Source of the DNA: Sphingopyxis sp. BE259
GTDB taxonomy: Bacteria > Pseudomonadota > Alphaproteobacteria > Sphingomonadales > Sphingomonadaceae
Reading direction: 5' to 3'
Length of the DNA stretch: 64,000 nt
Assembly: GCF_031457495.1 (NCBI RefSeq)
Contig: NZ_JAVDWM010000001.1
Coordinates: 3,274,001 to 3,338,000 of the forward strand
The translations under genes and the position numbers were made by a program. Positions within the stretch are counted from its first letter, which is position 1. Every line of letters begins with the position of its first letter. The notes beneath the pieces were generated by a model. That model saw only the letters and a program-made list of their open reading frames with translations, was not told the DNA's origin and did no database searches. Shown piece by piece: positions 4,477 through 33,162 of this stretch.

Positions 4477-4568
4477 CGTTTGCGCCGCGGCGATTGTCAG
4501 CGCGGACTGCATCTGTATGACTGGCGCCCATCCCGCGTGGGCGGGCAAGACAATCGGAGGGGTCCGGA

Positions 4569-5672: not shown

Positions 5673-5720
5673 GGGTCGTGAGCGAGCATCCCGTCGGTCT
5701 GCGCCGGAAAGGATAGATCC

Positions 5721-6125: not shown

Positions 6126-6127
6126 GG

Positions 6128-6796: not shown

Positions 6797-7500
6797 AAAA
6801 GATCTATCCCGACGCCGCTGCCGCCCTCGACGGCCTCTTGTTCGACGGTATGCACATCTGCGCCGGTGGCTTCGGCCTGTGCGGCATCCCCGAACGGTTG
6901 ATCGATGCGATCCGCGATGCGGGCACCAACGGGCTGACGATCGCCAGCAACAATGCCGGGATCGACGGCGAAGGGCTCGGCAAGCTGCTCCGCACCCGTC
7001 AGGTCAAGAAAATGATCAGCTCGTATGTCGGCGAAAACAAGGAATTCGAGCGCCAATATCTGGCGGGCGAGCTCGAGGTCGAATTCTGCCCGCAAGGCAC
7101 GCTCGCCGAACGCTGCCGCGCCGGCGGCGCGGGCATTCCGGGCTTTTACACCAAGACCGGCGTCGGCACCGCGGTGGCCGAGGGCAAGGAGGTCAAGAAT
7201 TTCGACGGGCAGGATTATATCCTGGAACGCGGCATTTTTGCCGACCTCGCGATCATCAAGGGGTGGAAAGCCGACGAGAGCGGCAATTTGATTTTCCGCA
7301 AGACCGCGCGCAATTTCAACGCCCCGATGGCAACCGCCGCCAAAATCTGCGTTGCCGAGGTCGAGGAAATCGTCCCCGTCGGCAGCCTCGATCCCGACGC
7401 CATTCACCTACCCGGCATCTATGTGAAACGCATGATTATCGGCGCGCCTTACGACAAGAAGATCGAGTTCCGCACGGTTCGCCCGCGCGAGGCGGCGTGA
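6793..7500 (+). CDS. scoA: 3-oxoacid CoA-transferase subunit A
   Basis: The 235-residue alpha subunit of succinyl-CoA:3-ketoacid CoA-transferase, which activates acetoacetate or other 3-oxoacids by transferring CoA from succinyl-CoA. Evidence is the full-length family pattern: a [15 protein letters not shown] segment, [34 protein letters not shown], then [21 protein letters not shown]. The catalytic Glu is in subunit B. The gene is separated from scoB by a phosphatase gene, which is unusual because scoA and scoB are normally adjacent. The start overlaps the HAD stop by 4 nt, and its own stop overlaps the next ATG by one base. Confidence 0.93.
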
Positions 7501-8369
7501 TGCGCGCGTTCCCGATCACGGCGGCGTTGCTGCTGGCGGGCTGTGCGAGCGCGCCGGCCGCGGTGACAACGGCCCCGACTCCGCCCGCGACCATAGAAGC
7601 GACGAAGCCGCCAGTCGCGCTGCAATATCTCTACGGCTCAGCCGAAGCCGCCATCGCGGTACGCGCGACCAATACGCGCATCGCCGACTATGGCGTCGCC
7701 CGGATCAAGCAGCGGCCGACCGATAGCGTGGTTCTCGCCGCTGGTGCGACAATGGATGCGCCGCGCTTCGAACCGTGCGGAACCAAGCCCTACGCCGCGG
7801 TGTTCGACGCCGACGAGACGTTGATCTGGAACCTTGGCCCGATGCGCTATTTCGCCGAGCAAAACTCAACCTACGATCCCAAAATCTGGGACCAGTGGGA
7901 AAAAACCGGCGCGGGCAAGGCAGCCGCCATGCCCGGCACCGCCGAGATGCTGGCCAAACTGCGCGCCGCCGGTATCACCGTGATCGCCAACACCAATCGC
8001 AGCGCCGTCAATGCGAAGGGCAGCGAGGATACGTTGCGCGCCGCGGGCCTGGGCGAGTTCAAACATGGCGAAACCCTGTTCCTGATGGGCGACGATTCCA
8101 CCGGATCGAGCAAGGACGGGCGCCGCGCCACGATCGCCGCAAAATATTGCGTCATCCTGATGGCGGGCGACCAGCTCGGCGATTTCAGCCAGCAGTTCAA
8201 CGCCAAGGATCTGCCCGCCGCAACCCGCACCGCGCTTGCGACCGGCCCCGCCGCCGCCGCGCTGTGGGACAAGGGCTGGTTCCTGTTCCCCAACTCCGTT
8301 TACGGCCCGTGGGAAAAACTGGGCTGGGACGACACCTTCCCCTCCGACAAGAATTGGGAGCCGAAATAA
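7500..8369 (+). CDS. Lipoprotein acid phosphatase, e(P4)/class C HAD type
   Basis: A 289-residue outer-membrane or periplasmic lipoprotein: the signal peptide ends in LLLAGC, giving a lipidated Cys near residue 15. The HAD phosphatase core has [12 protein letters not shown] (DxDE motif I), a TNRS motif II region, and the C-terminal [22 protein letters not shown], typical of class C acid phosphatases / 5'-nucleotidase e(P4). These enzymes dephosphorylate nucleotides such as NMN outside the cytoplasm to allow uptake. The gene lies between scoA and scoB, with TGATG coupling to scoA and 1 nt before scoB. An envelope enzyme between two cytoplasmic subunits is odd. Confidence 0.87.
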
Positions 8370-8370
8370 G

Positions 8371-9006
8371 ATGCCCTGGACCCGCGACGATATGGCGGCG
8401 CGCGCCGCGCAGGAACTGCAGGACGGCTATTACGTCAACCTGGGGATCGGCATCCCGACGCTGGTCGCCAATCATATTCCCGCCGGGATGACGGTCACGC
8501 TCCAGTCCGAAAACGGTATGCTGGGCATCGGCCCCTTCCCCTATGAGGGCGAGGAGGATGCCGATCTGATCAACGCGGGCAAGCAGACGATCAGCGAAGT
8601 GCCGCAATCGGCCTATTTCAGCTCGTCGGACAGCTTCGCGATGATCCGCGGCGGCCATATCGACCTGACCGTCCTAGGCGCGATGGAGATTGCCGAAAAT
8701 GGCGACATCGCCAACTGGATGATTCCGGGCAAGATGATCAAGGGCATGGGCGGCGCAATGGACCTCGTCGCCGGGGTCAAAAAAATCATCGTCGTGATGG
8801 AGCACAACGCCAAGGACGGCAGCCCGAAATTCATCCCGGCCTGCACGCTGCCGCTGACCGGCAAGAATGTCGTCGACATGATCATCACCGACCTCGCGGT
8901 GTTCAAGCGCGACGATCACGACAACCCGTTCAAGCTGATCGAACTGGCGCCGGGGGTGACGGCGGAAGAGGTTGCTGCAAAAACGACGGCAAGCTACTCA
9001 TCCTGA
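8371..9006 (+). CDS. scoB: 3-oxoacid CoA-transferase subunit B
   Basis: The 211-residue beta subunit, partner of scoA. The catalytic glutamate motif is clear in [14 protein letters not shown]. Other family motifs are [17 protein letters not shown] near residue 25, the [15 protein letters not shown] helix and [14 protein letters not shown]. Length and motif order match the usual beta subunit, so the enzyme should be functional with subunit A despite the intervening gene. The HEPN-domain gene begins at the very next base after the stop, so the toxin-antitoxin pair is probably transcribed with the CoA-transferase. Confidence 0.94.
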
Positions 9007-9426
9007 ATGGATGACAAGCCTCCACCGCGGTCCCAGCTCCGCCTGGACAATTTTTCACGCGCCTTGTCAGGCCTGAAAGAAGCGGTTGATCTGCGCTACA
9101 GCCGCCCACTGACCGAACTGGAAAAGGCTGGAATGGTCCAGCGTTTCGAAATTGCCTGGGAATTGGGCTGGAAACTGCTGGCCGATCGGCTTTCGGAAGA
9201 ACTGGCACCACCAGAAGCGCTGACCCCGGCATCGACCATTCGCGCCGCCCACGCCGCCGGCATGATCGCTACGGCCGACGAATGGCTCGCGATGGGCAAG
9301 TTGCGCAACCAGCTGTCGCACACCTACAGCGAGCCGATCCGTGATCAGGGATTAAAACTGATCGCCGATCAATTCCTCGCGATATTGATCGCACTGAAAC
9401 GGGACGCCGATGCGCGTGGAGCATGA
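9007..9426 (+). CDS. HEPN-domain toxin, HepT/HI0074-like
   Basis: A 139-residue all-alpha protein of the nucleotidyltransferase substrate-binding (HI0074/HepT-like) family. It carries the HEPN signature R100-x4-H105-x-Y107 in LRNQLSHTY, the RX4HXY motif of HepT toxins. In the studied Shewanella system HepT is an RNase that is silenced when the partner MntA adds AMP groups to the motif tyrosine (established for that homologue). All three key residues are intact here. The frame starts at the base after the scoB stop and overlaps the partner gene by 17 nt. Toxin activity is inferred, not shown. Confidence 0.85.
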   Translation: MDDKPPPRSQLRLDNFSRALSGLKEAVDLRYSRPLTELEKAGMVQRFEIAWELGWKLLADRLSEELAPPEALTPASTIRAAHAAGMIATADEWLAMGKLRNQLSHTYSEPIRDQGLKLIADQFLAILIALKRDADARGA

Positions 9427-9751
9427 TGCCGTCGGCCTGTCGGTCGATGACATGCGGATCGTTGCCGAGATTCTCTCACGCTATGCCGAACATATCGACC
9501 GGGTGAGTGTTTTCGGCTCACGCGCAGCCCGCGCAGCGCGCCCGGGCTCCGATCTCGACCTTCTCCTGAGCGGGCCTATCGACTTCGCCGACATGCTGAA
9601 TCTCGGCGTCGCCTTTGAGGAAAGCGAGCTGTCCGTCGCGGTCGATCTGCAACATGAGCGCAATCTGATCGACCAGCGGGTGCGCGACGAGATTTTGAAA
9701 CGCTGCCGCCTTTTGTTCACCCATGATGATCTGATGAAGATCGAACCATGA
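9410..9751 (+). CDS. Minimal nucleotidyltransferase antitoxin, MntA/HI0073-like
   Basis: A 113-residue minimal nucleotidyltransferase. The catalytic pattern is exact: G36-S37, ten residues, then D48-L-D50 in VFGSRAARAARPGSDLDLL, with a third acidic residue at D79 in SVAVDLQ. Such proteins transfer AMP to the HEPN partner. The gene overlaps hepT by 17 nt in another frame, so production is coupled. The frame looks complete with intact active site, arguing that the module is a functional HEPN/MNT toxin-antitoxin pair. A short spacer of 39 nt follows before the next gene. Confidence 0.87.
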   Translation: MRVEHDAVGLSVDDMRIVAEILSRYAEHIDRVSVFGSRAARAARPGSDLDLLLSGPIDFADMLNLGVAFEESELSVAVDLQHERNLIDQRVRDEILKRCRLLFTHDDLMKIEP

Positions 9752-9790
9752 GCGGGCAGCGGGCCTCCGCGACGACCGCGGATCATCGCC

Positions 9791-10240
9791 ATGCCTGACG
9801 TCACCGCCAACCCCGGGTCGACCTGGTTGCTGATCGGCGGCGGATTGTCGGTCGCGGCGGCGCTGCTCCATATCGCGTGCATCTTTGGCGGCCCCGACTG
9901 GTATCGCTTCTTCGGCGCGGGTGAAGGCATGGCGCGCGCGGCGGCGCGTGGCGACTGGGCGCCGACCCTGATCACCCTGGCGATCAGCGCGATCCTGCTG
10001 ATCTGGGCTGCCTATGCCTTTTCGGCTGCGGGCATGCTCCCGCGCCTGCCGCTGCTGCGCACCGGATTGGTGACGATCACCGCCATCTATCTGCTGCGCG
10101 GCCTGATCTTTGTCCCGCTCCATTTTTGGCGGCCGCAACACACCGACGGTTTCGCGGTGTGGTCGTCGCTGATCGTCTTCATCTACGGCACGGTTTACGC
10201 CGTCGGAACGGTCAAGGCGTGGGACGACCTGAAGCCCTGA
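9791..10240 (+). CDS. Four-helix membrane protein of unknown function
   Basis: A 149-residue protein with four predicted membrane helices: WLLIGGGLSVAAALLHIACI, LITLAISAILLIWAAYAF, LLRTGLVTITAIYLLRGLIF and WSSLIVFIYGTVYAVGTV. Between helices 1 and 2 lies a polar loop with DWYRFFGAGEGMARA. No family assignment is possible from memory beyond small inner-membrane protein. The start codon lacks a strong ribosome site. It follows the HEPN/MNT pair by 39 nt and might be in the same transcript, but no functional link is apparent. Confidence 0.65.
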   Translation: MPDVTANPGSTWLLIGGGLSVAAALLHIACIFGGPDWYRFFGAGEGMARAAARGDWAPTLITLAISAILLIWAAYAFSAAGMLPRLPLLRTGLVTITAIYLLRGLIFVPLHFWRPQHTDGFAVWSSLIVFIYGTVYAVGTVKAWDDLKP

Positions 10241-10320
10241 ACCGTGCATGGGGGTGACGACGGCGAAAGTCGCGGCTAGAACGACGATCATAACTAGGTC
10301 GCAGTCCAGTCACGAGTTGC

Positions 10321-11595
10321 ATGAAGCGCGTTTTTAGCATTTCGATCGGCGCCGCCGTGCTGGCCGCCGCCGGCTGGTTCGGCATTCACGCCTTGGGCGG
10401 CAGCGCCCCGCTGGCCAGCGTTCCGATCCCGATCAAGCCGCCCGAAAATCTGCCTGATACCCCCGCTGAATGGCGCGGACGGATCGACTATCGCGCTCTC
10501 GACCAGCAATTGACCGACCTGTCGTTGCGCCCCGAAATGGCGGGGCTTGCCGTGGCGGTGGTCGAAGACGGCGAGCTGCGCTTCGTCCGCACCTATGGGG
10601 TCGCCGATGCCTCGACCGGCGCCCCGGTCACGCCGCACACGCTGTTTCGCTGGGCCTCGGTGTCCAAGACCGCCACCGGCGCGCTGGCGGCGGCGCTGGC
10701 CAAGGACGGGCGCGTCGATCTCGACCGGCCGATCGCGCGATCGCGCACCTCGCTCCGCCTGCCCGGCGGCGCCGAGGCGCGGGTGACACTTGAGGACGTG
10801 CTGGCCCAGCGCACCGGCCTGACCAAAAACGCTTACGACGAAAGGCTGGAGGACGGGCAGAGTCCGGCGCTGCTGCGCGCCAGCCTGCTCGGCGCGCCGC
10901 TGCAATGCGAACCCGGCACCTGCCACACCTATCAGAACATCGCCTTCGACGCCGCCAGCGAGATTTTGGGCGACGCGGCAAACGCGCTGTTCCCCGATGC
11001 GGTCGAAGCGCGCTTTTTCCGCCCGCTCGGCATGGTCAGTGCCGGTTATGGCATGGAGCGACTGACCGGCGCCAAGGATTGGGCCAGGCCGCACCGCGGC
11101 ACTCAGGTCCGCCCGGTCAAGGAGGCCTATTGGCGGGTGCCCGCCGCGGCGGGGGTCGAAAGCGACATCGTCGATTTCGCGACCTGGATGCAGGCGATGA
11201 TGGGCAGTCGCCCCGACGTGCTGCCCGAACCGGTGCTGGAAATCGCGCACCAGTCGCGCGTTCGCACCGAACCGCTATATGGCAGCGCCCTGCGCCAGGC
11301 GAACAGCGATGCGTCCTATGGCCTGGGCTGGCGGAATTTCACCTATGGCGGCCACCGGCTCGCGGGTCATTCGGGGGCGGTGTCGGGCTACCGCGCGACG
11401 ATGATATTCGAACCGGCGACGCGCACCGGCGTCGTCGCGCTGTGGAACAGCGACTGGGGCTTTCCGTTTCGCATCCCGTTCGCCGCGCTCGACAGCTATC
11501 ACCAGCGTGAGGACGCCCGCTGGCTCGACCTGGAAGACCTGCCGCCGGTGACGCGCGCCGCCATCTTACCGCCGACGGCCAAGTTGAAAAAATGA
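10321..11595 (+). CDS. Serine hydrolase, class C beta-lactamase/esterase fold
   Basis: A 424-residue protein with an N-terminal hydrophobic segment (residues 6-25), probably an uncleaved signal anchor or signal peptide. The penicillin-binding-like catalytic residues are all visible: S113-x-x-K116 in WASVSKT, the YxN motif Y204-Q-N206 in HTYQNIAFD, and the HSG triad near GHSGAVSGY in place of KTG. This is the family that includes AmpC, EstB and D-aminopeptidases, so the activity could be an esterase or peptidase acting in the periplasm. The His in place of Lys in the third motif favours esterase/peptidase over true beta-lactamase. Confidence 0.82.
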   Translation: MKRVFSISIGAAVLAAAGWFGIHALGGSAPLASVPIPIKPPENLPDTPAEWRGRIDYRALDQQLTDLSLRPEMAGLAVAVVEDGELRFVRTYGVADASTGAPVTPHTLFRWASVSKTATGALAAALAKDGRVDLDRPIARSRTSLRLPGGAEARVTLEDVLAQRTGLTKNAYDERLEDGQSPALLRASLLGAPLQCEPGTCHTYQNIAFDAASEILGDAANALFPDAVEARFFRPLGMVSAGYGMERLTGAKDWARPHRGTQVRPVKEAYWRVPAAAGVESDIVDFATWMQAMMGSRPDVLPEPVLEIAHQSRVRTEPLYGSALRQANSDASYGLGWRNFTYGGHRLAGHSGAVSGYRATMIFEPATRTGVVALWNSDWGFPFRIPFAALDSYHQREDARWLDLEDLPPVTRAAILPPTAKLKK

Positions 11596-11656
11596 CCCCC
11601 CTTGCCGCCTGATCGGCTGCCTGTGTATCAGGCGCGCGTTCGGGTCGAAGGGAGGA

Positions 11657-12640
11657 ATGGCGATGCGGATATTGCTGACCGGGTCGTCGGGCTGGCTGGC
11701 GCGTTTTCTGGCGCCATTGCTCGTCGAAAGCGGGCATTCGGTCATCGGCCTCGATGTCGTTCCCGGCGCGCACACCCGGATCGTCGGCACCGTCGCCGAC
11801 CGCGCGCTGATCGACCGGACGATGGGCGAGCACGGCATCGAGGCGGTGATCCACGGCGGCGCGCTGCACAAACCCGACATCGTCCGCTATCCGCGGCAGG
11901 CGTTCGTCGATGTCAATATCAGCGGGACGCTGAACCTGATCGAGGCGGCGGTGGCGGCGGGCAACGACCGGTTCCTGTTCACCTCGACCACCTCACTGAT
12001 GGTGCGCGCCGATGTCCGCGATGGCGCAGGCGAAACGGGTGCGTGGTGGATGGACGAGGATTTCGGCCCGCTGGCGCCGCGCAACATCTATGGCATCACC
12101 AAGCTCGCCGCCGAACAGGCGTGCCGGCTCGTCCACCGCGAGCGTGGCATCAACGTCGCCATCCTGCGCACCGGGCGCTTCTTTCCCGAGGATGACGACA
12201 CCCATGCTGTGCCGAGCGGCCCGAACCTCAAGGCCAATGAACTGCTCCACCGCCGCCTGACCGTCGAGGATGCCGCCGCCGCGCATCTCGCCGCGCTGGA
12301 GGCCGCGCCGAGGATCGGCTGCGACACTTTCGTCCTCTCGGCTCCGCCACCCTTTGCCCGCGACGACGCCGCCGAGCTTGCGCGCGACGCGCGGGCGGTC
12401 ATCGCGCGTTATCATCCCGACGCGGCCAACCTCTACGCGGCGGCGGGCTGGGTGCTGCCCGAAACGATCGACCGCGTGTACGACCCGTCGCGCGCCGAGC
12501 GCCGCTTCGGCTGGCGCGCCCAGACCGATTTCGGCGCCGTGCTCGCGGCACTCCGCGAGGGGAGCGCGCTGCCCTTCGCGCACGATCCCGCCTACACCTC
12601 TCCTATTGTCCGTCAGGAGCGCGAAGCATGTACGAGCTGA
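11657..12640 (+). CDS. NAD(P)-dependent epimerase/dehydratase (extended SDR)
   Basis: A 327-residue extended short-chain dehydrogenase. The N-terminal Rossmann motif is ILLTGSSGWLARFLAPLL (GxxGxxA type), followed by the acidic D of GLDVV. The catalytic YxxxK is in NIYGITKLAAEQ, with the partner Ser/Thr in FTSTTSL. The substrate is not identifiable; most relatives act on nucleotide sugars or reduce small carbonyls. The start is at ATG 11657 or two codons later at 11663, which is better spaced from GGGAGG. It overlaps the GST gene by 13 nt, so the two form an operon. Confidence 0.83.
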   Translation: MAMRILLTGSSGWLARFLAPLLVESGHSVIGLDVVPGAHTRIVGTVADRALIDRTMGEHGIEAVIHGGALHKPDIVRYPRQAFVDVNISGTLNLIEAAVAAGNDRFLFTSTTSLMVRADVRDGAGETGAWWMDEDFGPLAPRNIYGITKLAAEQACRLVHRERGINVAILRTGRFFPEDDDTHAVPSGPNLKANELLHRRLTVEDAAAAHLAALEAAPRIGCDTFVLSAPPPFARDDAAELARDARAVIARYHPDAANLYAAAGWVLPETIDRVYDPSRAERRFGWRAQTDFGAVLAALREGSALPFAHDPAYTSPIVRQEREACTS

Positions 12641-13308
12641 TCACCGCCAACCGCAATTATTCGAGCTGGTCGCTGCGCCCGTGGGTGCTGATGACCGCAC
12701 TCGGCATCGCGTTCGACGATCGCATCGAACCCTTCACCAAACCCGCCAATTACGAAGATTTCCGTCGCTTTTCGCCCACCGGGCAGGTGCCCGCGTTGCT
12801 GCACGAAGGGCGCACGATTTACGACTCGCTGGGCATCGCCCTCTATCTCGCCGACCGCCACGACGGCGTGTGGCCGACCGATCCCGACGCGCGCGCCTGG
12901 GCGCAGTGCGCCACCGCCGAAATGCACAGCGGCTTTGCGGCGCTGCGCAACGACTGCACGATGAACGTCGGGGTCCGCGTGACCCCCAAGCCGATGTCGG
13001 ACGCGCTGCAAGCCAATGTGGCGCGCATCCGCGAATTGTTCGAGGACGGACTGGCGAAATTTGGCGGGCCGTGGCTGGCCGGGCCGGATTTCGCCGCGGT
13101 CGACGCCTTCTTCGCCCCCGTCGCCTTCCGCATCCGTACCTATGGCCTCGACGTCGGCGCCGGGCAGGCGTGGGTCGATCACATTCTGGCACATCCGGCG
13201 ATGGTGGAGTGGGAACGCCAGGCGCTCGCCGAAAGCTGGCGCGAGGTCGGGCATGAGGAAGAACTGCGCGCGTGCGGGGCGATTACCGCGGATTACCGGA
13301 CGGGTTAA
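12628..13308 (+). CDS. Glutathione S-transferase family protein
   Basis: A 226-residue GST. The N-terminal thioredoxin-like domain starts YELITANRNYSSWSLRPWVL, with Ser in the position that activates glutathione. It continues with the cis-Pro segment GQVPALLHEGRTIYDSLGIALYL. The C-terminal helical domain contains WLAGPDFAAVDAFFAPV, the N-capping box of GSTs. The exact substrate is unknown; the NYSSWS start resembles the YfcF / maleylacetoacetate-isomerase-like group. It is probably co-transcribed with the epimerase. Its stop overlaps the convergent crtZ stop in the shared palindrome TTAA (13305-13308). Confidence 0.86.
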   Translation: MYELITANRNYSSWSLRPWVLMTALGIAFDDRIEPFTKPANYEDFRRFSPTGQVPALLHEGRTIYDSLGIALYLADRHDGVWPTDPDARAWAQCATAEMHSGFAALRNDCTMNVGVRVTPKPMSDALQANVARIRELFEDGLAKFGGPWLAGPDFAAVDAFFAPVAFRIRTYGLDVGAGQAWVDHILAHPAMVEWERQALAESWREVGHEEELRACGAITADYRTG

Positions 13309-13823
13309 TCGACCAGCGCCTCACGCACCACCGCGACCCCCGCTTCGCGCTGCACCTTCAACTCGGCCTTCAATTTCGCCGGATCGCGCGCAAAGACGAA
13401 ACCGAAGCTGACCCCGCCCTCTTTGCCGATCGTCGCATGGTGCAGCTTGTGCGCCTGCACCAGCCGCTTGGCATAGCCGCGCCGCGGCACCCAGCGGAAA
13501 TAGCGTTGGTGCACCAGCCCGTCGTGCACCACGGTATAGATGATGCCGTAAAACAGCACCCCCAGCCCGATCCACGTCCCCGGCGCCCACGCCGACGACC
13601 CCATGATCATCGGACTGCCCACCGCGAACATCGAAATGCTCAGCGCCGCGCCGAACAGGCCGAACAGATCGTTCTTTTCCAGCATCTTGTCATGCGGCTC
13701 ATGATGGTCGCGATGCCACGCCCAGCCAAAGCCGTGCATGATATATTTGTGGCTGGCCCACGCGACGAACTCCATCGCCACAACGGTGGCGACGATCAAC
13801 GCGATGATAGCGGGCAACGACAT
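13305..13823 (-). CDS. crtZ: Beta-carotene 3-hydroxylase
   Basis: A 172-residue membrane di-iron hydroxylase that adds 3-OH groups to beta-ionone rings, giving zeaxanthin. The histidine clusters that bind iron are all present: H25-x4-H30, H37-x2-H40-H41 with H44, H100-x4-H105, and H125-x2-H128-H129. Hydrophobic helices surround them (residues 4-22, about 57-75, 82-98). Sphingomonads make nostoxanthin-type carotenoids, which fits. No other crt gene lies in this window, so crtZ is unlinked from the core pathway here. It is convergent with the GST gene, sharing stop bases. Confidence 0.9.
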   Translation of the reverse strand: MSLPAIIALIVATVVAMEFVAWASHKYIMHGFGWAWHRDHHEPHDKMLEKNDLFGLFGAALSISMFAVGSPMIMGSSAWAPGTWIGLGVLFYGIIYTVVHDGLVHQRYFRWVPRRGYAKRLVQAHKLHHATIGKEGGVSFGFVFARDPAKLKAELKVQREAGVAVVREALVD

Positions 13824-13876
13824 GCGGCCGATATAAGCCCCTCACCCGGCCAGCGCCAGCCCAAGCGCCAGCATAT

Positions 13877-15550
13877 CTAGTCGCCGACGAACACCAATCG
13901 GTCGCGGAACTTGTGGCTGCGCGCGGTGGACGAAAAGCTGCTCTTCATCCAGCCGCCATCCTCGCTGAGATAATCAGCGTCGGTCAGCCCTTGGCCGCGA
14001 ATCTGGTTGATGAAGGCGCGCGATTTATAATGGTCGAACATCCGCAGAAATTCGGTCGCCATGATCGCGATCAGCCGCGGATCTTCGCTCAGAAAGGCGT
14101 TTTCGTCATTGCCTTGACAGCTTTCGTCGCTGAAGTTCGCCGACCCGAACAGCATTTGCGGGCGGGTACCGAACGGGTCGATGATCATCAGCTTGCTGTG
14201 GATCTTGTGGTTGCCGAACGCCTTGGCATCCCAATTGCGCCCCATATAGGTTTCGAGCCGCGACGGCACAAAATAGCGCGTGTTGTTCGTGGTCAGCGCC
14301 TCGACCTTCTTGCGCACGGTGGTGTTGGCCAGGCCATAGTGGAGCAATTCCTTCGGCTGCAACGCGATCGCCGTGACGATGGCAGGGTCGAGTGCGAACG
14401 GCGCGCTGGTCAGGACGCAGCTTTTTGCCGCGCCGACCAGTTCGACCGCCTTGTCGATGATGTCGAGCGTCCGCACCGGCGAGAAATATTGCGTGGCGAA
14501 CGGCCCGCCCCCCACCGCGGCGAGCCGCGCCTGCAGCGCCCCGACGCGGTTGCGCACCTCGGCCGGATCGCTCTTGGATGGCCCACGCGCCGGATCATCG
14601 GCCAGGATCAGCCAATAGTCGTGATAGGCGGCGGCGACGACCGGATCGTCCAGGATCACTGCGGCATTGGTCTGGTAATAAAAGGCGTTTTCGGAAAAAT
14701 TGGCGGTGCCGGTAAAGGTTCGCACCGGCACCCCGCCGACCAGCTGGACGACGAACTTGTTGTGGCTGATCTTCTGGATCGCGGCGCGCGGAGTCGCGAT
14801 GGCGGTCAGGCCGTGCGCGGCGAGCACCGTTTCGCTCTTGTGCGTCGCATGGTCGCCCGGCTTGGCGTGATAGACGATCCGCACATAGACCCCGCGCGCC
14901 TTTGCCGCCGCCAGCGCCGCCGCCACCTCGTCATCGAAAAATTCGTAGATGCCGACGCGCAGCGCGTGGCCGCCGCCCGCGCCATCGATGAAGCCGATCA
15001 ACGCCTCTTTCAGCCCGCGCGACAGCCAGCGCCACGCTGCCCCATCAGGAACGTCGCGCGGATGCGCGCCCTTGAAGCGGTCGAGATAGGCAAAGGCGGA
15101 CGTGACGCCGCGATTGACATAGGCGCCGACCCCCGCCGCCATTTCTGGCGACGGGCGCAGCTTGAGGGTCATGGGCGCTTCATCGGTGGTCAGTCCGCCC
15201 GGCGGGGTGCCGCGCACCGGAAAAATGTCGAAAATATAGCCGAGGCTGCTTTTCAGCGTGTAATCGCTCCAGCGGAAACGCTGGAACGGCGCCTCGCGCG
15301 ACGACACATCATAGCCATCGACCGGATCGCCCTTGAAGCGTTTCTCGCCGCGCAGCCAGTTCACCGCGACCACCTCGCCGCTGGCTAGGTCGACCTCGCT
15401 CTTGCGTACCGCAAAGCCGTGCAGGCCCGCTGCGTGCGCCGGATCGACGTCCCAGCCGAGCGAGATGCTGTGGGTGCCGACCAGCGCCGCGGCGCGATAC
15501 GGCCCCTGCGTCGTGCGGATGACGGGACGATAAGCGGGAATCGAAACCAT
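13877..15550 (-). CDS. Phospholipase D-like protein with one degenerate HKD motif
   Basis: A 557-residue protein with two PLD-type catalytic motifs. The first is H263-N-K265 followed at the Asp position by Leu (L270), then TFTGTANFSENAF. The second is complete, H451-S-K453-x4-D458, followed by LFGSANFSDES. An N-terminal domain of about 190 residues precedes them and is not recognised. The enzyme would hydrolyse or transfer phosphodiester groups; the substrate could be lipid or nucleic acid. I chose the ATG at 15550, which has AGGAGAG upstream. No signal peptide is evident. Whether the changed first motif still works is open. Confidence 0.82.
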   Translation of the reverse strand: MVSIPAYRPVIRTTQGPYRAAALVGTHSISLGWDVDPAHAAGLHGFAVRKSEVDLASGEVVAVNWLRGEKRFKGDPVDGYDVSSREAPFQRFRWSDYTLKSSLGYIFDIFPVRGTPPGGLTTDEAPMTLKLRPSPEMAAGVGAYVNRGVTSAFAYLDRFKGAHPRDVPDGAAWRWLSRGLKEALIGFIDGAGGGHALRVGIYEFFDDEVAAALAAAKARGVYVRIVYHAKPGDHATHKSETVLAAHGLTAIATPRAAIQKISHNKFVVQLVGGVPVRTFTGTANFSENAFYYQTNAAVILDDPVVAAAYHDYWLILADDPARGPSKSDPAEVRNRVGALQARLAAVGGGPFATQYFSPVRTLDIIDKAVELVGAAKSCVLTSAPFALDPAIVTAIALQPKELLHYGLANTTVRKKVEALTTNNTRYFVPSRLETYMGRNWDAKAFGNHKIHSKLMIIDPFGTRPQMLFGSANFSDESCQGNDENAFLSEDPRLIAIMATEFLRMFDHYKSRAFINQIRGQGLTDADYLSEDGGWMKSSFSSTARSHKFRDRLVFVGD

Positions 15551-25590: not shown

Positions 25591-27303
25591 TTACCGCCCC
25601 TGGCTGCGCCAGCGCTTGACCACGCGCTCCAGAATCTCCGCCTCGCCGCCGGTCTCGCGCCACAGTTTCGAGAACAGCGGATCGCTCGATGCCGGCCGCT
25701 TGTCTTCCTCCAGCGTGTCGAGATAGACGCGGATCGGGATCGACACGCCTTCGCCGCAGACGATGCATTCGCGGTTGCGCAGCGCCGGGATCGAATCGAT
25801 GAACCCGCGCGCGCCTTCGGGCATGGCGGCTTTAACGAAATGCTGGTCGCGCTCGTTGTTGAGGCGCATCGAAATGATCGTGCCGCACTGCGACAGCACG
25901 CCTTCGGCCAGATCGGACGGACGCTGGGTGATCAGGCCCAGCGACACGCCATATTTGCGGCCTTCTTTGGCGATCCGCTCCAGGATCTTGCGGACCGCTT
26001 GCCCGCTGCCGACGTCCTTTGACGGGATGTAACGATGGGCCTCTTCGCAGACGAGCAGGATCGGACGTTGCGGTTCGCCGCGCGACCAGATCGCATAGTC
26101 GAAGGTCAGGCGCGACAGCACCGCGACGACGACCCCGGTAATGTCCGACGGCACCCCCGACACGTCGATGATCGAGATCGGACGGCCGTCGGACGGCAGG
26201 CGGAAAATCTTGCCGAGGAAACCCGCCATCGTGTCGGCGACCAACATGCCCGAGAACATGAAATTATAGCGCGGATCGGCGCGCATTTCCTCGATCTTGC
26301 CCTTGATCCGCATGAACGGCGCCGACGAGGTCGCCTTGTCGAGCTTGCCCATCTCGTTGGTCAGGATGCTCAGCAGGTCGGACAGCAGATAGGGAATCGG
26401 CGAATCGACCGTAATCTTGGTCATCCCCTCGGCCAGCCGGTTCTTGGTCCGCGCCTGAAGCAGGCAGCGCGACAACACGTCGCAGTCGGCCTGGCGGTCG
26501 CGGCCTTGCGCGGTGACGAACACTTCGCAATGTTCTTCGAAGTTCATCAGCCAATAGGGCATGGCAAGGTTATCGACGTCGAACAGCGCCCCGATGCCCT
26601 TGAACGCCGCCGAATATTCGCCGTGCGGGTCGATCATCACGATATGACCCTGTGGCGCGAGTTCGCAGATCTTGTGCAGGATCAGCGCCGCGCTGGTCGA
26701 CTTGCCCGTACCCGTCGATCCCAGCAGCGCAAAATGCTTGCCCAACATCGCGTCGACATACAGCGAGCCGCGAATATCCTTGGTCGGATAGACGGTGCCG
26801 ATTTCGACATGCGCGCGTTCGTCGGCGGCGTAAATCTGTTTGAGGTCGGCGCTGGTCGCTGCGAACACCTGGCTGCCCGGGATCGGATAGCGGGTGACGC
26901 CGCGGCGGAAATTCGAAATGCGGCCGGTGATCTTTTCCTCTTCGCCTTCGCCCAGGAAGTCGATGGTCGCGACGATCAGCCCCTCGCCGCGTTCGTGCAA
27001 TTGCTGATCGCGGATGCTGGCGATCAGCCAGATATTGCCGACGCGAACCTTGACCTGCGCGCCGACCTGGCCCGCCATCGCCACCGCGGCATCGCTGGAC
27101 GCCGACAATTTCCCGATCGTTACGGCGTCGAGCAGGATGCGTGAGGCCGAGCCCGAAATATCGATCACTTCGCCGATCATCAGATCGTCGCGATGATGAT
27201 TGATCACCGGCGCCACCGCCGCAGCCGCGCCGCCACCGGCGAGCCGCACATGCTGTGCCGCGGTCGAGTCTCCAGCGGGAAATCCGCCACCCTGCATGTC
27301 CAT
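25591..27303 (-). CDS. HerA-like DNA translocase/ATPase (DUF87)
   Basis: A 570-residue HerA/FtsK-superfamily ATPase. An N-terminal HAS-barrel-like domain (to about residue 150) contains IGEVIDISGSASRILLD. The Walker A motif is LLGSTGTGKST (about residues 193-203). Walker B is ILLVCEEAHRYIP. A later LGLITQRPSDLAEGVLSQ holds the sensor glutamine, and RLNNERD the arginine region. HerA proteins pump DNA at breaks, usually with the NurA nuclease; no nurA is nearby. I chose the ATG at 27303, since the frame continues upstream only through a TTG. It is likely monocistronic. Confidence 0.86.
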   Translation of the reverse strand: MDMQGGGFPAGDSTAAQHVRLAGGGAAAAVAPVINHHRDDLMIGEVIDISGSASRILLDAVTIGKLSASSDAAVAMAGQVGAQVKVRVGNIWLIASIRDQQLHERGEGLIVATIDFLGEGEEEKITGRISNFRRGVTRYPIPGSQVFAATSADLKQIYAADERAHVEIGTVYPTKDIRGSLYVDAMLGKHFALLGSTGTGKSTSAALILHKICELAPQGHIVMIDPHGEYSAAFKGIGALFDVDNLAMPYWLMNFEEHCEVFVTAQGRDRQADCDVLSRCLLQARTKNRLAEGMTKITVDSPIPYLLSDLLSILTNEMGKLDKATSSAPFMRIKGKIEEMRADPRYNFMFSGMLVADTMAGFLGKIFRLPSDGRPISIIDVSGVPSDITGVVVAVLSRLTFDYAIWSRGEPQRPILLVCEEAHRYIPSKDVGSGQAVRKILERIAKEGRKYGVSLGLITQRPSDLAEGVLSQCGTIISMRLNNERDQHFVKAAMPEGARGFIDSIPALRNRECIVCGEGVSIPIRVYLDTLEEDKRPASSDPLFSKLWRETGGEAEILERVVKRWRSQGR

Positions 27304-27373
27304 CAAAACGCCCCGCCTTCATTGGTCCCGATGGCGGTATCGCAGGTCAGGGTAAATATTGGCTAAAGGCAGT

Positions 27374-28147
27374 TCACCGGCGGCGGAATATCGCCGACGC
27401 GGCATAGCCGAGCAGCAGCGACAGGACCACCGCGGTAAGACCATAAAGAAAGCCGTGACGCTCTGCCGCCAGCGCGACGAAGCGTTCGAATCCAGCCTTG
27501 CGGATCTGGACGTCGCGCGAGGCGACCGCGATCACGCGGCCGCGGCTGATCAGAAAGGTTTCGGCGCGATAGGTGCCGACCGGCACCCGCGCCGGCACCG
27601 GAATGCGCGCCCGATAGAGCACCCCCTCGGTGATCTCGACCGCCGCCGGATTTTCATAGAACAGCCCGAGACGGCGATAGAGGTCGGTCAGCCCGGCTTC
27701 GAAGCGTTCGAGCTTGCTCGCCTCCGAAAAGCTCGACGGCGACATCGACAGGTTAGCGAGCCCCAGTTCAAAGATCGCTGCGGTGCGTTCGTCGACCAGC
27801 TTGTCGATCGGGCGCGACGATCCGATCGCATAGAAACCGGGCGAGGTTCGCAGCCGGATGCTGCTGGCGTTGACCCAGATGCCGGCGACGCGCCGCTTTT
27901 CGCGCAGCACGATCGGCCGCATCGGCCCCTTCAACACGACGACGATGTCGGCGCGGTCGTCGGGCAGGCGCTGGCCGGGATAGAGGATCGCGCCGAACAG
28001 CAGCAATTCCTCGCCGGTAAAGCTATACTGGATGTCGATCGCCCGGCTCGACACATCGGGAACCAGCCGCGGATCGGCGGCCTGCGTCGCCACCGGCGCG
28101 AACAGCAGCGCGGCGATCATCAATGGCAAGGCGCGCAGTCGGCTCAT
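27374..28147 (-). CDS. TIGR02186-like membrane-anchored periplasmic protein
   Basis: A 257-residue protein. A signal peptide (LRALPLMIAALLFAPVATQA) is followed by a periplasmic domain with FTGEELLLFGAILYPG, DIVVVLKGP and RVAGIWVNASS. Near the C-terminus is one membrane helix, FLYGLTAVVLSLLLGYAASAI, with an FRRR cytoplasmic end. This pattern matches the alphaproteobacterial TIGR02186 group, of unknown function. It overlaps the upstream TauE/SafE transporter by 4 nt (ATGA). It may be an accessory subunit of that transporter. Confidence 0.78.
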   Translation of the reverse strand: MSRLRALPLMIAALLFAPVATQAADPRLVPDVSSRAIDIQYSFTGEELLLFGAILYPGQRLPDDRADIVVVLKGPMRPIVLREKRRVAGIWVNASSIRLRTSPGFYAIGSSRPIDKLVDERTAAIFELGLANLSMSPSSFSEASKLERFEAGLTDLYRRLGLFYENPAAVEITEGVLYRARIPVPARVPVGTYRAETFLISRGRVIAVASRDVQIRKAGFERFVALAAERHGFLYGLTAVVLSLLLGYAASAIFRRR

Positions 28148-29052
28148 TGCACCGAATAAATTTCGTCGGGTCGGATGAACAGCCCGACCGCCATCTGCAA
28201 CGCCACCAGCAGGACGATCGCCGCGAGCGCCAACCGCAGATATTCGGGCCGCGCCTTTTGGGCGAAGCGTGCCCCGAACTGCGCCCCGACCACGCTGCCG
28301 AGCAGCAGCAGCCCGGCGAGCACGATGTCGACCGCGCCCGTCGTCAGCGCATGAACCATCGTCGTCGCGATCGTCACGAACAGGATCTGGAACAGTGAGG
28401 TGCCGACGACGACCTGCGTCCCCATGCCGAGCAGATACAGCATCGCGGGCACCATGATGAACCCGCCGCCAACCCCGAGCAGCATCGTCAGCACCCCGCC
28501 GACCATCCCGAGCAACAGCGGCGCGAGCGGGGAGATGTAGAGCCCCGAACGATAGAAGCGCCAGCGCAGCGGCAGGTTGGCCACCATCGGATGGTGACGC
28601 CGCTTGCGCGCCGGGGCGGGCAGCCCGGCTTGTGCAGCGCGAAAGCTACCCCACGCCTCGCGCCCCATGAACGTCCCGACGGTGCCGAGCAGCGCGACAT
28701 ACAGGACCGAAATCACCGTATCGATTTGCCCCCAGGCGGTGAGCAGTTCGAACAATCCGGCGCCGATCAGCGACCCGAGCAGACCGCCGGCGACCAGCAC
28801 CGCCCCCATTCGCAGGTCGACCCCGTCGCGTTCGAGATGCGCCATTACCCCCGATACGCTCGCCCCAGTGACCTGCGTCGCCGCCGACGCCGCCGCCACG
28901 GTCGGCGGAATGCCGTAAAAGATCAGCAAGGGCGTGGTCAGAAACCCGCCGCCAACCCCGAACATGCCCGACAGAAAGCCCACCCCGCCGCCGAGCAGCA
29001 CGATGACCAACGCATTGACCGACAAATTGGCAACGGGAAGATAAAGGTCCAT
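28144..29052 (-). CDS. Sulfite exporter TauE/SafE family permease
   Basis: A 302-residue inner-membrane permease with about eight helices in two repeats. The first repeat shows VIVLLGGGVGFLSGMFGVGGGFLTTPLLI and the second MVGGVLTMLLGVGGGFIMVPAML; the repeated GxGGGF motif is the family hallmark. Members export sulfite, sulfonates or other organic anions; specificity cannot be set. It is the first gene of a two-gene unit with the TIGR02186-like partner, with which it overlaps by 4 nt. Confidence 0.88.
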   Translation of the reverse strand: MDLYLPVANLSVNALVIVLLGGGVGFLSGMFGVGGGFLTTPLLIFYGIPPTVAAASAATQVTGASVSGVMAHLERDGVDLRMGAVLVAGGLLGSLIGAGLFELLTAWGQIDTVISVLYVALLGTVGTFMGREAWGSFRAAQAGLPAPARKRRHHPMVANLPLRWRFYRSGLYISPLAPLLLGMVGGVLTMLLGVGGGFIMVPAMLYLLGMGTQVVVGTSLFQILFVTIATTMVHALTTGAVDIVLAGLLLLGSVVGAQFGARFAQKARPEYLRLALAAIVLLVALQMAVGLFIRPDEIYSVQ

Positions 29053-29156: not shown

Positions 29157-30308
29157 TTAAAAGTCGGTGGCCAGGGTCAGCGCGACGCCACTTTCGGGTT
29201 GTGCATCGCCCGCAACCCGCTGGCGCCAGTCGAGCGCGATCCGGCTGCCCGCGCCGATGTCGGGCAGCCGCAGGGTGAGCCGAGGGCCAACATCGACGCG
29301 CGCCGCCCCAGGCTGCACCGCCCCCGCCGCCAGCGCGCCGAGCCGCAATGGCGACGTCGCATCGGGCCCAATCCGGCGGTCGATCACGATCGCGCCGTCG
29401 GCAAAGCCATCGCGCCGCCGCGCCCCAACGACGCCCGCCTGACCATAAGCCTCCAGCCGGAAACCATGCGCGAGGGCGACGTCCGATACGCCGCCACTGA
29501 CCATCGCGGTGAGCGCAGTGCGCCCCGCTTTCCCGATCGCGACCCGCTGTTCGACCGCAACATCGATCGGCCAATGCTCCAGCGGCGCAAAGGCGAGGCC
29601 GAACGCCAACTCGCGCTGGTCTGGGCGCCGCACCGCGATCGTCGCCCGGCCATAGGCGCGCATGCGGCCAGTGCTGCCGAACCCGTGGCTGAGCCGCAGC
29701 CCGGCCTGGCTGCCGCCCAGCTGGCTCGCTGCGGCAATGCCATCGGGCGCGTCCGGCGCGCCATCGCGCAGGTAGAGCCAGCCGGCAAGCGACCAGCCCG
29801 ACAATTGCCGCCGCATCCAGAACGGCTTGCCCTGCCCCGGATCAGAGCGGGCGGCGACCGGAAGCGGAAACCATGCCGGCCCGCCCGATGCCATCGCCGA
29901 TCGCGCCGCGCCGCCCGGTGATGGCGGCAACAGCCGGGCCATCAGTGCGAGGCGCAAGCTGTGGCGGTCGCCGCCGACGCCCGAAACCAGAGGCTGCCCG
30001 CTAGCGCCCGTCATCGGTATCGAACCGCTTGCCACCGGCACCGCCGCAAAACCGGCGCCCGGCGCCTGCATCGCGGGCAGCGATCGGGTGTCTGGGGCCG
30101 CCGCGATGCGATCGTCGTGATCGGCGATTGCCCCGGTTGCGGCGAAGGGAGACGGCGCCGACCAAGGCGTCCGAACGGCATCTGCCGACGCGGACCCCGC
30201 CGGGCTCCAATGGGCCAGCACCCGCACCACGGTCCAGCCGCCAACACACAGCAGCAGGAACCGCAGCGCCGGCGCATCGCGGCGCGCGTCCAACCGCCGC
30301 GCCATCAT
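29157..30308 (-). CDS. NfrA C-terminal-like outer-membrane protein (minimal)
   Basis: A 383-residue protein. A hydrophobic N-terminal segment (residues 16-33) acts as signal or anchor. A Pro/Ala-rich linker follows to about residue 160. From residue 164, FWMRRQLSGWSLAGWLYLRDG begins a region with alternating hydrophobic strands, ASQLGGSQAGLRLSHGFG and RAYGRATIAVRR, and it ends LTLATDF with the terminal Phe typical of outer-membrane beta-barrels. The pattern resembles the C-terminal domain of phage N4 receptor NfrA, without its long N-terminal repeat region. The ATG at 30308 overlaps the glycosyltransferase stop by 4 nt. The NfrA relation is from memory and moderately sure. Confidence 0.6.
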   Translation of the reverse strand: MMARRLDARRDAPALRFLLLCVGGWTVVRVLAHWSPAGSASADAVRTPWSAPSPFAATGAIADHDDRIAAAPDTRSLPAMQAPGAGFAAVPVASGSIPMTGASGQPLVSGVGGDRHSLRLALMARLLPPSPGGAARSAMASGGPAWFPLPVAARSDPGQGKPFWMRRQLSGWSLAGWLYLRDGAPDAPDGIAAASQLGGSQAGLRLSHGFGSTGRMRAYGRATIAVRRPDQRELAFGLAFAPLEHWPIDVAVEQRVAIGKAGRTALTAMVSGGVSDVALAHGFRLEAYGQAGVVGARRRDGFADGAIVIDRRIGPDATSPLRLGALAAGAVQPGAARVDVGPRLTLRLPDIGAGSRIALDWRQRVAGDAQPESGVALTLATDF

Positions 30309-31759
30309 CGCCGCGCCGCCGCGATCATGGCCGGATCGCCGGCCATATCGGACGCCCAATGCTCGGTCTTGTCCCAGATTACCTGCCCCGACCGCAGCAT
30401 CCGCCAATAGAGAATGATCGCTCGCCGCGCCGCGAGCATGGCGATGATGTTCGCCACAAACGCCCGCGGCACGGCGCGCGCACCCTCGCGCCAGCCGTAC
30501 CAGCATGTGGTGAAATAGATGCGCATCCCCAGCCGCCAGAGCAACAGTACCGCGTTCATCGCAAGCAGCCAGCGCATCCCATCCCCAAGCGTGGCCGGAT
30601 GCCATCCCAGCAACGCCTGCCCGGCCCAACCGATCGCCGTGACAAGCAGCCCGGCATAAGCTGCGAGCAGGATGATCGCTGCCAGCGGGGCGCGGCGATC
30701 GCGCCACAACATCCACCGCGCCAGCCAAAGCTGACCCGCCGGAACGCCGACCATCTCGCGCCGTGACCCGGGCCACCCAAGATGGTCCCAACCGGCCAGT
30801 GCAATCCCGGCGATCCACCGTGCTTTCTGTTTCACCGCGGCATCGACCGCGCCGGGAAATACGCCGCGCGACACGATCGAGTCGCCACTCCGCGACGCGG
30901 TCTCGACAAAGCGGGCGCCCAGGCCATAGGCGCCGATTACCATGCCGACCTCGTAATCTTCGGTCAGGCTGTCACAGCGAAACGGATTGCCGCCGCGGTC
31001 GATCGCCAGCAGCGCCAACACGCTGCGCGTCAAGGCGCAGCCGACCCCCGCCGACGGCATGGGCAAGCCGAGGCGCGAACGCACCACCAGTTCCTTGCCA
31101 TGCGCCTCGGCAAACTCGTCGCCATAATGACCGCCGATCCAGCGCGACCCGCTCCGGACCACCGGCGCGACCGGAATCTGCACCATTGCGTGATCGCACA
31201 GATACCGGCGATAGAGGGCAAGTTCGCCGGGATGCACATGATCTTCGGCATCGTGGAGGACGACCGCGGCAAAGCGCACACCCTCCGCCCGCTCATCCTC
31301 GCCCAGCGCCGCCCAGAGCCGATTGAGATTGTCGCCCTTGGTCGTCGGTCCGGCGGCAGCGCTGATAACCAGCCTCAGTCGCCGGTCGCGCACGATCAGC
31401 GGCGATATGGCAAACAGCGTCGCGGCGTCGTTGGGATAGCAGCCGACATACAGCCGGAAATCCTCATCCTCCCAGGCGGCGAGGGTCCGCTCGATCATCG
31501 CGGGCAGCACCCGCGCCTCGTCCCACGCCGGAACGAAGATCGCCAGCGTTCCGGCCAGCGGCGGCAGATCGCCGGGATCAAGGCAGTGTTCGCGGGGTTT
31601 TTCGGGACGCGTCCCCAGCCAAAATGCATCGAAAAACAGATCGTCGAGTCCGATCAGCAGAATACCCACCGATGCAAACAGCATCAGTTCGTGGCCAGCC
31701 CCAAGCACCAGCCATTCCAGCCATGCGGTCGACAGCTCCACCCACCAGCCCTGTACCAC
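30305..31759 (-). CDS. NfrB-like membrane glycosyltransferase (GT2), lacking the C-terminal regulatory domain
   Basis: A 484-residue processive-type family 2 glycosyltransferase. It has an N-terminal membrane helix (residues 23-40), then FVPAWDEARVL (nucleotide-sugar site) and KGDNLN. The acidic metal motif is HDAEDHVHP (D170-D173), the base motif TEDYE (266-270) and the acceptor motif Q311-K-A-R-W315. Several C-terminal helices precede a WDKTEH motif near residue 462, which NfrB proteins share. NfrB of E. coli continues with a cyclic-di-GMP-binding domain; this protein stops about 18 residues after WDKTEH. The GTG start at 31759 is uncertain. It should make or export a surface glycan with the downstream NfrA-like protein. 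Confidence 0.78.
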   Translation of the reverse strand: MVQGWWVELSTAWLEWLVLGAGHELMLFASVGILLIGLDDLFFDAFWLGTRPEKPREHCLDPGDLPPLAGTLAIFVPAWDEARVLPAMIERTLAAWEDEDFRLYVGCYPNDAATLFAISPLIVRDRRLRLVISAAAGPTTKGDNLNRLWAALGEDERAEGVRFAAVVLHDAEDHVHPGELALYRRYLCDHAMVQIPVAPVVRSGSRWIGGHYGDEFAEAHGKELVVRSRLGLPMPSAGVGCALTRSVLALLAIDRGGNPFRCDSLTEDYEVGMVIGAYGLGARFVETASRSGDSIVSRGVFPGAVDAAVKQKARWIAGIALAGWDHLGWPGSRREMVGVPAGQLWLARWMLWRDRRAPLAAIILLAAYAGLLVTAIGWAGQALLGWHPATLGDGMRWLLAMNAVLLLWRLGMRIYFTTCWYGWREGARAVPRAFVANIIAMLAARRAIILYWRMLRSGQVIWDKTEHWASDMAGDPAMIAAARR

Positions 31760-31875: not shown

Positions 31876-33162
31876 ATGAGCATGGGTAATCCGCCTCGTT
31901 CGGTTTTGCGGGACTTTCTCGCGAGCGAGAGCGCGGGCGGGATGCTGCTCATTTTCGCCGCCATTTTGGCAATGATTGTCGCCAATTCGTCGCTCGGCAC
32001 CGTCTATCATGATGCTGTCCACGCGGTGACGGGTCCGGTGCTGACCGACAAGCTCGGCCCGATGACGGTTCATCTGTGGATCAATGACGGACTGATGGCG
32101 GTCTTTTTTCTGCTCGTCGGGCTCGAAATCAAGCGCGAGTTCGTCGACGGACGGCTCGCGAGCTGGGACCGGCGACGGTTGCCGTTCATTGCGGCGGCGG
32201 CGGGGATGGCCGTGCCCGCGGCGCTCTATTTGCTGTTTGCGGGGTCGACACCGGGCCTGGCCCAAGGCTGGGCGATTCCGGCCGCCACCGACATCGCCTT
32301 TGCGATGGGCGTGCTGGCCTTGCTCGGCCGCCGCGCGCCGACGTCGCTCAAGCTGTTTCTCGTCACCGTTGCGATCGTCGACGACATGGGCGCGGTCGCG
32401 ATCATCGCGCTGTTCTACACCGCCAAGATCAACTTGCTCGCGCTCGCCGCGGCGGCGGCGATCCTTGGCGCAATGTTTGCGATGGGCCGGTTCGGCATCA
32501 AAAGCCTGCCGCTCTACCTGCTTGCCTTTGTCTTTCTCTGGTATGCCATGCTGCTCTCTGGCGTTCACGCCACGATCGCCGGGGTTCTGGCGGCGATGGC
32601 AATCCCGTTCGAGCGCACCCCGGGCGCACCCGACAGCCAGACCTCGCCGCTCCACCGGCTCGAACATGGCCTCCATCCCTGGGTCGCCTTTGCGATCGTG
32701 CCGCTGTTCGGCTTTGCCAACGCCGGGGTCGATATGAGCGGCTTGACCGCCGAACAGCTGTTCGCGCCGTTACCGCTCGGTATCGCGGCGGGACTGTTCC
32801 TGGGCAAGCAGCTGGGTATTTTCGGCAGCGTCTGGCTGGCGGTCAAGCTGGGCATCGCGGGTAAGCTGCGCGGCGCGACCTGGCTGCAAATCTATGGCGT
32901 CGCGATGCTGTGCGGCATCGGCTTCACGATGAGCCTGTTCATCGGGGGCCTGGCTTTTCCCGGCGAGCCCCTGTTGATCGAAGAAGCCAAGATCGGCATC
33001 CTGATGGGGTCGCTTGCCGCGGCGCTGGTCGGGTTTGCGGTTCTGCGCTTCGCGCCGCTCCATCCTGAACATAATGCGGTTGAGCGCGAAACCGACGCCG
33101 AGATCGCCGCTGACGGCGATGTCGACGACACGTCCGAAGATCAGGAACCGGCAACCGCATGA
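31876..33162 (+). CDS. nhaA: Na+/H+ antiporter NhaA
   Basis: A 428-residue inner-membrane Na+/H+ antiporter, which exports Na+ and brings in protons for pH and salt homeostasis. The ion-binding aspartates are in VAIVDDMGAVAIIALFYTA, with the unwound-helix region ATDIAFAMGVLALLG. Other family landmarks are NDGLMAVFFLLVGLEIKREF and LSGVHATIAGVLAAMAIPF. About eleven helices are visible, followed by an acidic C-terminal tail (residues ~395-428). Alternative start at 31882. The stop overlaps the following DUF885 gene (ATGA). Confidence 0.95.
   Translation: MSMGNPPRSVLRDFLASESAGGMLLIFAAILAMIVANSSLGTVYHDAVHAVTGPVLTDKLGPMTVHLWINDGLMAVFFLLVGLEIKREFVDGRLASWDRRRLPFIAAAAGMAVPAALYLLFAGSTPGLAQGWAIPAATDIAFAMGVLALLGRRAPTSLKLFLVTVAIVDDMGAVAIIALFYTAKINLLALAAAAAILGAMFAMGRFGIKSLPLYLLAFVFLWYAMLLSGVHATIAGVLAAMAIPFERTPGAPDSQTSPLHRLEHGLHPWVAFAIVPLFGFANAGVDMSGLTAEQLFAPLPLGIAAGLFLGKQLGIFGSVWLAVKLGIAGKLRGATWLQIYGVAMLCGIGFTMSLFIGGLAFPGEPLLIEEAKIGILMGSLAAALVGFAVLRFAPLHPEHNAVERETDAEIAADGDVDDTSEDQEPATA

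Follow-up and report, generated by a model that had tools for sequence, protein, structure and literature searches.

The closest described relatives of the locus analysed here are NfrB and NfrA of Escherichia coli. In two papers on this system, NfrB is presented as a c-di-GMP-controlled glycosyltransferase making an exopolysaccharide, postulated to be ManNAc-based, that acts as the first receptor of phage N4, and NfrA as an outer-membrane protein and proposed exporter that is bound by gp65 (PMC8669469, PMC8669472). A survey reported there found MshEN in 1,705 of 1,841 NfrB homologues, occasional alphaproteobacterial members, and linkage of NfrB homologues to WecB-type epimerases in cases without a further copy (PMC8669469, PMC8669472).

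Within the window, by which we mean the whole 64,000-nucleotide stretch of Sphingopyxis sp. BE259 DNA that was analysed, a first-pass annotation had described two genes overlapping by ATGA, and we recovered both open reading frames with this overlap on the minus strand (Table 1). The pair is not a chance arrangement, because the first product matches the curated family NF011307 with an E value of 1e-200, the exported second product has 543 homologues at E <= 0.01 (8000 candidates scored; 120 of the 543 listed), and the pair is kept across genera. The E. coli and window loci share gene order, overlapping genes, the GT2 catalytic motifs, the WDKT.H boundary and a C-terminal barrel homologous to NfrA_C proteins (PMC8669469, PMC8669472). 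They differ in size and domain content, much as had been noted at first pass: E. coli NfrB has 745 residues with MshEN at 542-628, whereas the window glycosyltransferase has 484 and no MshEN, and E. coli NfrA has 990 residues with TPRs and NfrA_C at 809-977, whereas in the window protein of 383 residues no TPR was found, and a WxxxR helix with a disordered linker comes before the barrel. The description of the locus as a compact, stripped-down NfrBA thus holds for both genes.

Table 1. Features of the NfrBA-type pair and its neighbours, in window positions.
Feature	Positions	Strand	Basis or remark
HerA-like ATPase	25591-27306	minus	PF01935 9e-46; 34/40 genera
TIGR02186/Alph_Pro_TM protein	27374-28147	minus	PF09608 8.4e-76; 36/40 genera
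TauE/SafE (TSUP) permease	28144-29052	minus	PF01925; same strand downstream in 36/40 genera
NfrA-like outer-membrane barrel protein (predicted), exported, without TPR	29157-30308	minus	383 aa
Predicted 12-strand beta-barrel, strands between residues 171 and 380	29157-29798	minus	AlphaFold model
Disordered, fast-evolving linker, residues 34-167, at the place of the NfrA TPR scaffold	29808-30209	minus	pLDDT, dN/dS
N-terminal hydrophobic helix, residues 12-33, with W25 and R29 (WxxxR)	30210-30275	minus	AlphaFold model, family alignment
ATGA stop/start overlap of GT2 and barrel gene	30305-30308	minus	sequence
Compact NfrB-type membrane GT2	30305-31759	minus	484 aa, GTG start
NhaA antiporter, divergent upstream, other border of locus	31876-33162	plus	TIGR00773 428.7 bits, cut-off 254; upstream in 29/40 genera

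The glycosyltransferase is a clear member of NF011307 (667.6 bits against a curated cut-off of 431) and scores below the curated cut-off of NF008411, which describes c-di-GMP-activated NfrB (259.4 bits; cut-off 1170). Its family is already catalogued as NF011307 (PRK14716.1-5), under the name 'glycosyl transferase family protein', which is silent on function, on the barrel partner and on the missing regulation. Pfam assigns the protein to PF13641/PF13632, and a phmmer search of the PDB gave no match up to E 10. The expected membrane GT2 with all catalytic motifs and a WDKTEH ending was borne out by the presence of the active-site motifs HDAED, TED and QKARW (QxxRW), whose positions, apart from the T of TED, do not vary among 14 aligned sequences, E. 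coli NfrB being one of them. After WDKTEH 17 residues remain to the C-terminus, at a place where E. coli NfrB continues into a helical and MshEN region; Pfam found no MshEN in the window protein, and no sequence is left for it behind the GT domain. Relatives show a gradation behind this domain, with MshEN in E. coli NfrB and one family genome (G220), one helical hairpin in two order-level proteins (L066, L071; by eye) and nothing in the window protein, and MshEN was not found in the order-level glycosyltransferases scanned (L064, L066, L076, L081, L065). In a 76% complete genome (G410; L174) the glycosyltransferase gene carries one in-frame stop at query residue 378.

Direct searches of the second product against Pfam, NCBIfam and PDB sequences gave no match, and its link to NfrA is drawn from order-level relatives only. 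Among 16 order-level genomes, ten match NfrA_C, the same ten carry the glycosyltransferase, and the two genes adjoin in all ten. Using as template 15 order-level or TPR-type proteins, each of which matches PF13283 (NfrA_C), we found by hhalign that the last 223 columns of 21 barrel proteins of the genus align with NfrA_C proteins at E 5.8e-13, and that the last 221 columns of 39 family proteins do so at E 6.6e-18. As controls, reversing the template gave E 0.34, and shuffling its columns in 20 runs gave E 0.42-0.99. The homology covers the whole barrel up to the last residue. The first-pass annotation had seen an exported barrel-like protein resembling the C-terminal part of NfrA and had named comparison of this region with the NfrA C-terminal domain, a structure prediction and a survey of sphingomonads as checks; all three came out in its favour, with the profile similarity to NfrA_C proteins, the barrel in the model and the joint conservation of the two genes. 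E. coli NfrA alone reached only E 0.17 against the family barrel profile, at NfrA 737-844. PF13283 itself (gathering score 25 bits) matched none of the 21 genus rows at E <= 10, none of the 39 family rows at E <= 0.1 and, in six-frame search, none of 25 genomes of the genus. The alignments comprised 15 of 20 order-level regions (leaving aside L065, L067 and L069, with unclear frames or starts, and L077 and L078, in which no glycosyltransferase was found) and, in two further sets, 10 and 40 of the 120 barrel-protein homologues listed; where named, the listed homologues are called 'hypothetical' or 'uncharacterized' proteins. Pfam found no TPR in the 39 family or 21 genus barrel proteins, whereas TPR models match at least 11 of the 15 order-level NfrA_C proteins (TPR_2 alone matches 11). 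By profile comparison, then, the second gene's product is a divergent NfrA with its TPR part gone.

The AlphaFold model of this protein contains a 12-strand barrel, a disordered linker (pLDDT < 50 at residues 34-71 and 73-167) and one N-terminal helix, and we predict an outer-membrane barrel. Comparison of the model with PDB folds returned OmpG and autotransporter barrels, which are generic matches; it listed no NfrA and is uninformative on NfrA membership. Of 69 inward-facing strand residues, 13 are R/K and 9 D/E, which gives no clear pointer to an acidic polymer.

Across the Sphingomonadaceae the glycosyltransferase was matched in 184 of 199 genomes at E <= 0.001 (90 of 96 genera), a few of these matches being weak (e.g. 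G073, 8.3e-4) and possibly other GT2 enzymes; 164 lie above the curated cut-off. These family counts were taken from tallies and genome rows. The barrel gene lies directly downstream of the glycosyltransferase in 39 of 40 genera read in detail, a survey that says little on genera lacking the glycosyltransferase, because the 40 were picked by hand among those with a match above cut-off. In the fortieth genus (G263; L135) the barrel gene is recognisable only at its N-terminal part. In 35 of 39 genera other than that of the window the two genes likewise share exactly 4 nt, a script having taken the first start codon close to the glycosyltransferase stop as the barrel start. Within the genus of the window, 73 of 80 genomes carry the glycosyltransferase and 75 match the barrel profile, including all 73 with the glycosyltransferase, where matches include fragments at contig ends and one genome (G009) is counted despite an interrupted glycosyltransferase gene; the two barrel-only genomes hold relics. 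The pair is a real, family-wide reduced NfrBA system, and its compactness is typical of the clade rather than special to the window's genome.

Three things had not been noted at first pass: the conservation of the flanking genes, a WxxxR helix at the N-terminus of the barrel protein, and the recurrent loss of the pair. Behind the pair, at 25591-29052, the TSUP, TIGR02186 and HerA-like genes form a same-strand run that is conserved in 34-36 of 40 genera; the middle product scores 182.7 bits against TIGR02186, under the cut-off of 255.25. Among 70 high-quality genomes of the genus, TSUP is kept in all 70 and the glycosyltransferase in 65, and in the five that lack it (G010, G013, G034, G035, G385) NhaA, TSUP, TIGR02186 and HerA are all present. 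C-terminal remnants of the barrel gene, differing in length, are left in G010 and G034. Mapped by parsimony onto a tree built from three flanking proteins in 23 genomes, the absences require three losses, two of them forced by well-supported branches (bootstrap range 2-3), and 20 of 500 shuffles gave a number as low; the number of loss events is small because the losses are clustered on this tree. We count two or three losses of the pair within the genus, with the flanks retained. Outside the genus, NhaA and TSUP stand side by side without the glycosyltransferase in G116 and G220.

Both genes also evolve faster than the four neighbours tested. At 18 pair-bearing loci (two of a distant type, L084 and L085, the interrupted L093 and the five loss loci lacking the pair were set aside), median pairwise dN/dS was 0.232 (glycosyltransferase) and 0.327 (barrel protein), compared with 0.071-0.143 in these neighbours. 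Residues 41-160, in the linker, are the fastest-changing part (median 0.604; 116 of 153 pairs), against 0.209 for the barrel part.

We consider it probable that the pair is a reduced NfrB-NfrA system in which the GT2 would polymerise a nucleotide-sugar at the inner membrane and extrude the chain, the small barrel would pass it across the outer membrane, and the WxxxR membrane helix and disordered linker would replace the TPR scaffold, most simply by keeping the exporter beside the synthase. By analogy with E. coli, where the ManNAc polymer is itself postulated, the likely substrate would be UDP-ManNAc. With the MshEN region absent, synthesis would not be gated by c-di-GMP through the synthase, so that control would have to come from transcription, from the supply of substrate or from some further partner. 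The pair is most likely a two-gene synthase and exporter of a surface glycan that is not gated in this way.

In an alternative reading, the GT2 would act on a lipid or on a glycolipid of the cell surface, and the barrel would be an unrelated porin or adhesin that travels with it through linkage. The tasks of GT2 enzymes are diverse, sphingomonads carry glycosphingolipids, and the fold matches of the barrel are generic; nevertheless the joint inheritance of the two genes, their short overlap, their joint loss and the homology of the barrel to NfrA_C proteins make this improbable. Another alternative keeps the reduced NfrBA system and changes the substrate, the polymer in this clade not being ManNAc-based. 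The window's genome has one putative Epimerase_2 gene (UDP-GlcNAc 2-epimerase; C1:2448985), which is unlinked to the pair and lies, with a WecC-like dehydrogenase (by eye), inside a Wzc/Wza-type EPS cluster (L144 8884-11323; gene names by eye). UDP-ManNAc is thus probably available in this genome, and its use as substrate is proposed by analogy. A WecB-type Epimerase_2 gene was found in 190 of 199 family genomes, and its presence says little in favour of ManNAc because most of the family carries one, possibly for other polysaccharides. The unlinked epimerase favours a changed substrate, as do four genomes with a glycosyltransferase match and no epimerase match, namely G289 (94% complete, 660 contigs) and three that are less than 90% complete (G240, G338, G365). 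G015 had been a further candidate for such a counter-example and was rejected, the gene being cut by a contig end. Against a changed substrate, the epimerase adjoins the glycosyltransferase in three members of the order (G038, G050, G055), and four of five high-quality epimerase-less family genomes also lack the glycosyltransferase (G242, G257, G299 and G348, three of them from one genus), compared with 14 of 187 overall at E <= 0.001. On this evidence a non-ManNAc polymer seems rather unlikely.

Two further alternatives concern the N-terminal helix and the losses. The N-terminal helix could be an ordinary cleaved signal peptide, with nothing standing in for the TPR scaffold; its position, positively charged start and length fit, its pLDDT is only about 60-70, and the window protein has an AxA-like stretch after it (by eye). 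Yet W25 is kept in 39 of 40 family rows and R29 in all 40, across genera, and such residues are not usually conserved in signal peptides. The WxxxR motif is present in 38 of 39 family proteins, where shuffling predicts 5.8, and in all 21 genus proteins, where it predicts 5.0, as opposed to 1 of 15 order-level NfrA_C relatives (1.2 expected). In this respect the helix seems unlike an ordinary signal, and a near-invariant WxxxR in TPR-less proteins suggests an uncleaved inner-membrane anchor in place of the scaffold. We put the signal peptide at somewhat under an even chance. It is a tentative proposal, held with a little less confidence still, that the second protein spans both membranes, its uncleaved WxxxR helix docking on the synthase, the linker crossing the periplasm and the barrel exporting the chain, so that a tether would have replaced the TPR scaffold and given a two-protein secretion machine without the MshEN switch, near-core in one family and lost repeatedly, perhaps under phage pressure. 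As to the losses, fast evolution and recurrent loss are as expected of a surface structure under changing selection, and plain dispensability would look similar. That the pair is merely dispensable, with neither phage nor other surface selection at work, fits with a median dN/dS below 1 for every gene and region and with the clustering of the losses. A tblastn search with N4 gp65 against 50,697 phage records, which matched 189, is also in keeping with it: no sphingomonad phage stood among the 60 listed of the 189 rows or under the ten commonest first names, with up to 5 further records outside these. The full retention of TSUP in genomes from which the glycosyltransferase has gone, and the faster evolution of the pair than of the four tested neighbours, speak against dispensability, to which we assign an even chance.

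The proposed reduced NfrBA system can be set beside other glycan machines. Among known synthase-dependent secretion systems, dependence on a c-di-GMP switch and on a TPR scaffold is common. BcsC, PgaA and PelB, which are TPR proteins with 16-strand barrels, have the same proposed role, whereas the window barrel has 12 predicted strands and no TPR was found with it. KdgM and NanC are import porins, and we found no sequence link between glycan porins of their type and the window barrel. YbcH had no match in 60 relatives, in a search run without a positive control. NfrBA-type pairs from other families of the Sphingomonadales (e.g. L064, L066, L071, L072) have the glycosyltransferase beside the NfrA_C protein as in the window, although these NfrA_C proteins mostly have TPRs and lack WxxxR, unlike the window protein. 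Our search of the open literature on NfrA/NfrB, N4 adsorption proteins, sphingomonad phage receptors and the neighbour genes, with subscription papers outside its scope, found no description of the pair; within that scope, neither the identity of the barrel nor the lack of a scaffold, the WxxxR helix or the pattern of loss had been described. A near-core two-gene version showing neither c-di-GMP switch nor TPR scaffold would indicate how few parts a machine of this kind requires, and it is small enough to reconstitute. The pair may also be a candidate receptor for sphingomonad phages, for which its loss from an otherwise kept neighbourhood offers a testable reason.

In one genome of the genus (G009) the glycosyltransferase gene is interrupted by a phage-like element of about 10 kb (L093, G009:C63, about 4300-14480) with integrase, AAA helicase/primase, large terminase, HK97-type capsid, prohead protease and portal genes. 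No tail gene was found among the 7 ORFs searched, and the element has no direct repeat of att length, the longest exact match being 11 bp; it resembles a capsid-forming phage satellite.

Four family genomes match PF13283. Two of them (G087, G220) are of the order-level type by glycosyltransferase score, and in the other two (G154, G190) the matches lie away from the compact glycosyltransferase. In G220 (L079, L167) there is no compact glycosyltransferase between NhaA and TSUP, and an NfrB with MshEN (701 aa) is encoded elsewhere together with an NfrA_C protein. The NfrA_C genes of G154 and G190 (L077, L078) lie near an MTA-phosphorylase-like gene with no glycosyltransferase in the examined stretch, each an apparent orphan NfrA in a genome with a compact glycosyltransferase elsewhere, and an MTA-phosphorylase-like gene is also found near the NfrB/NfrA system of G220 (by eye).
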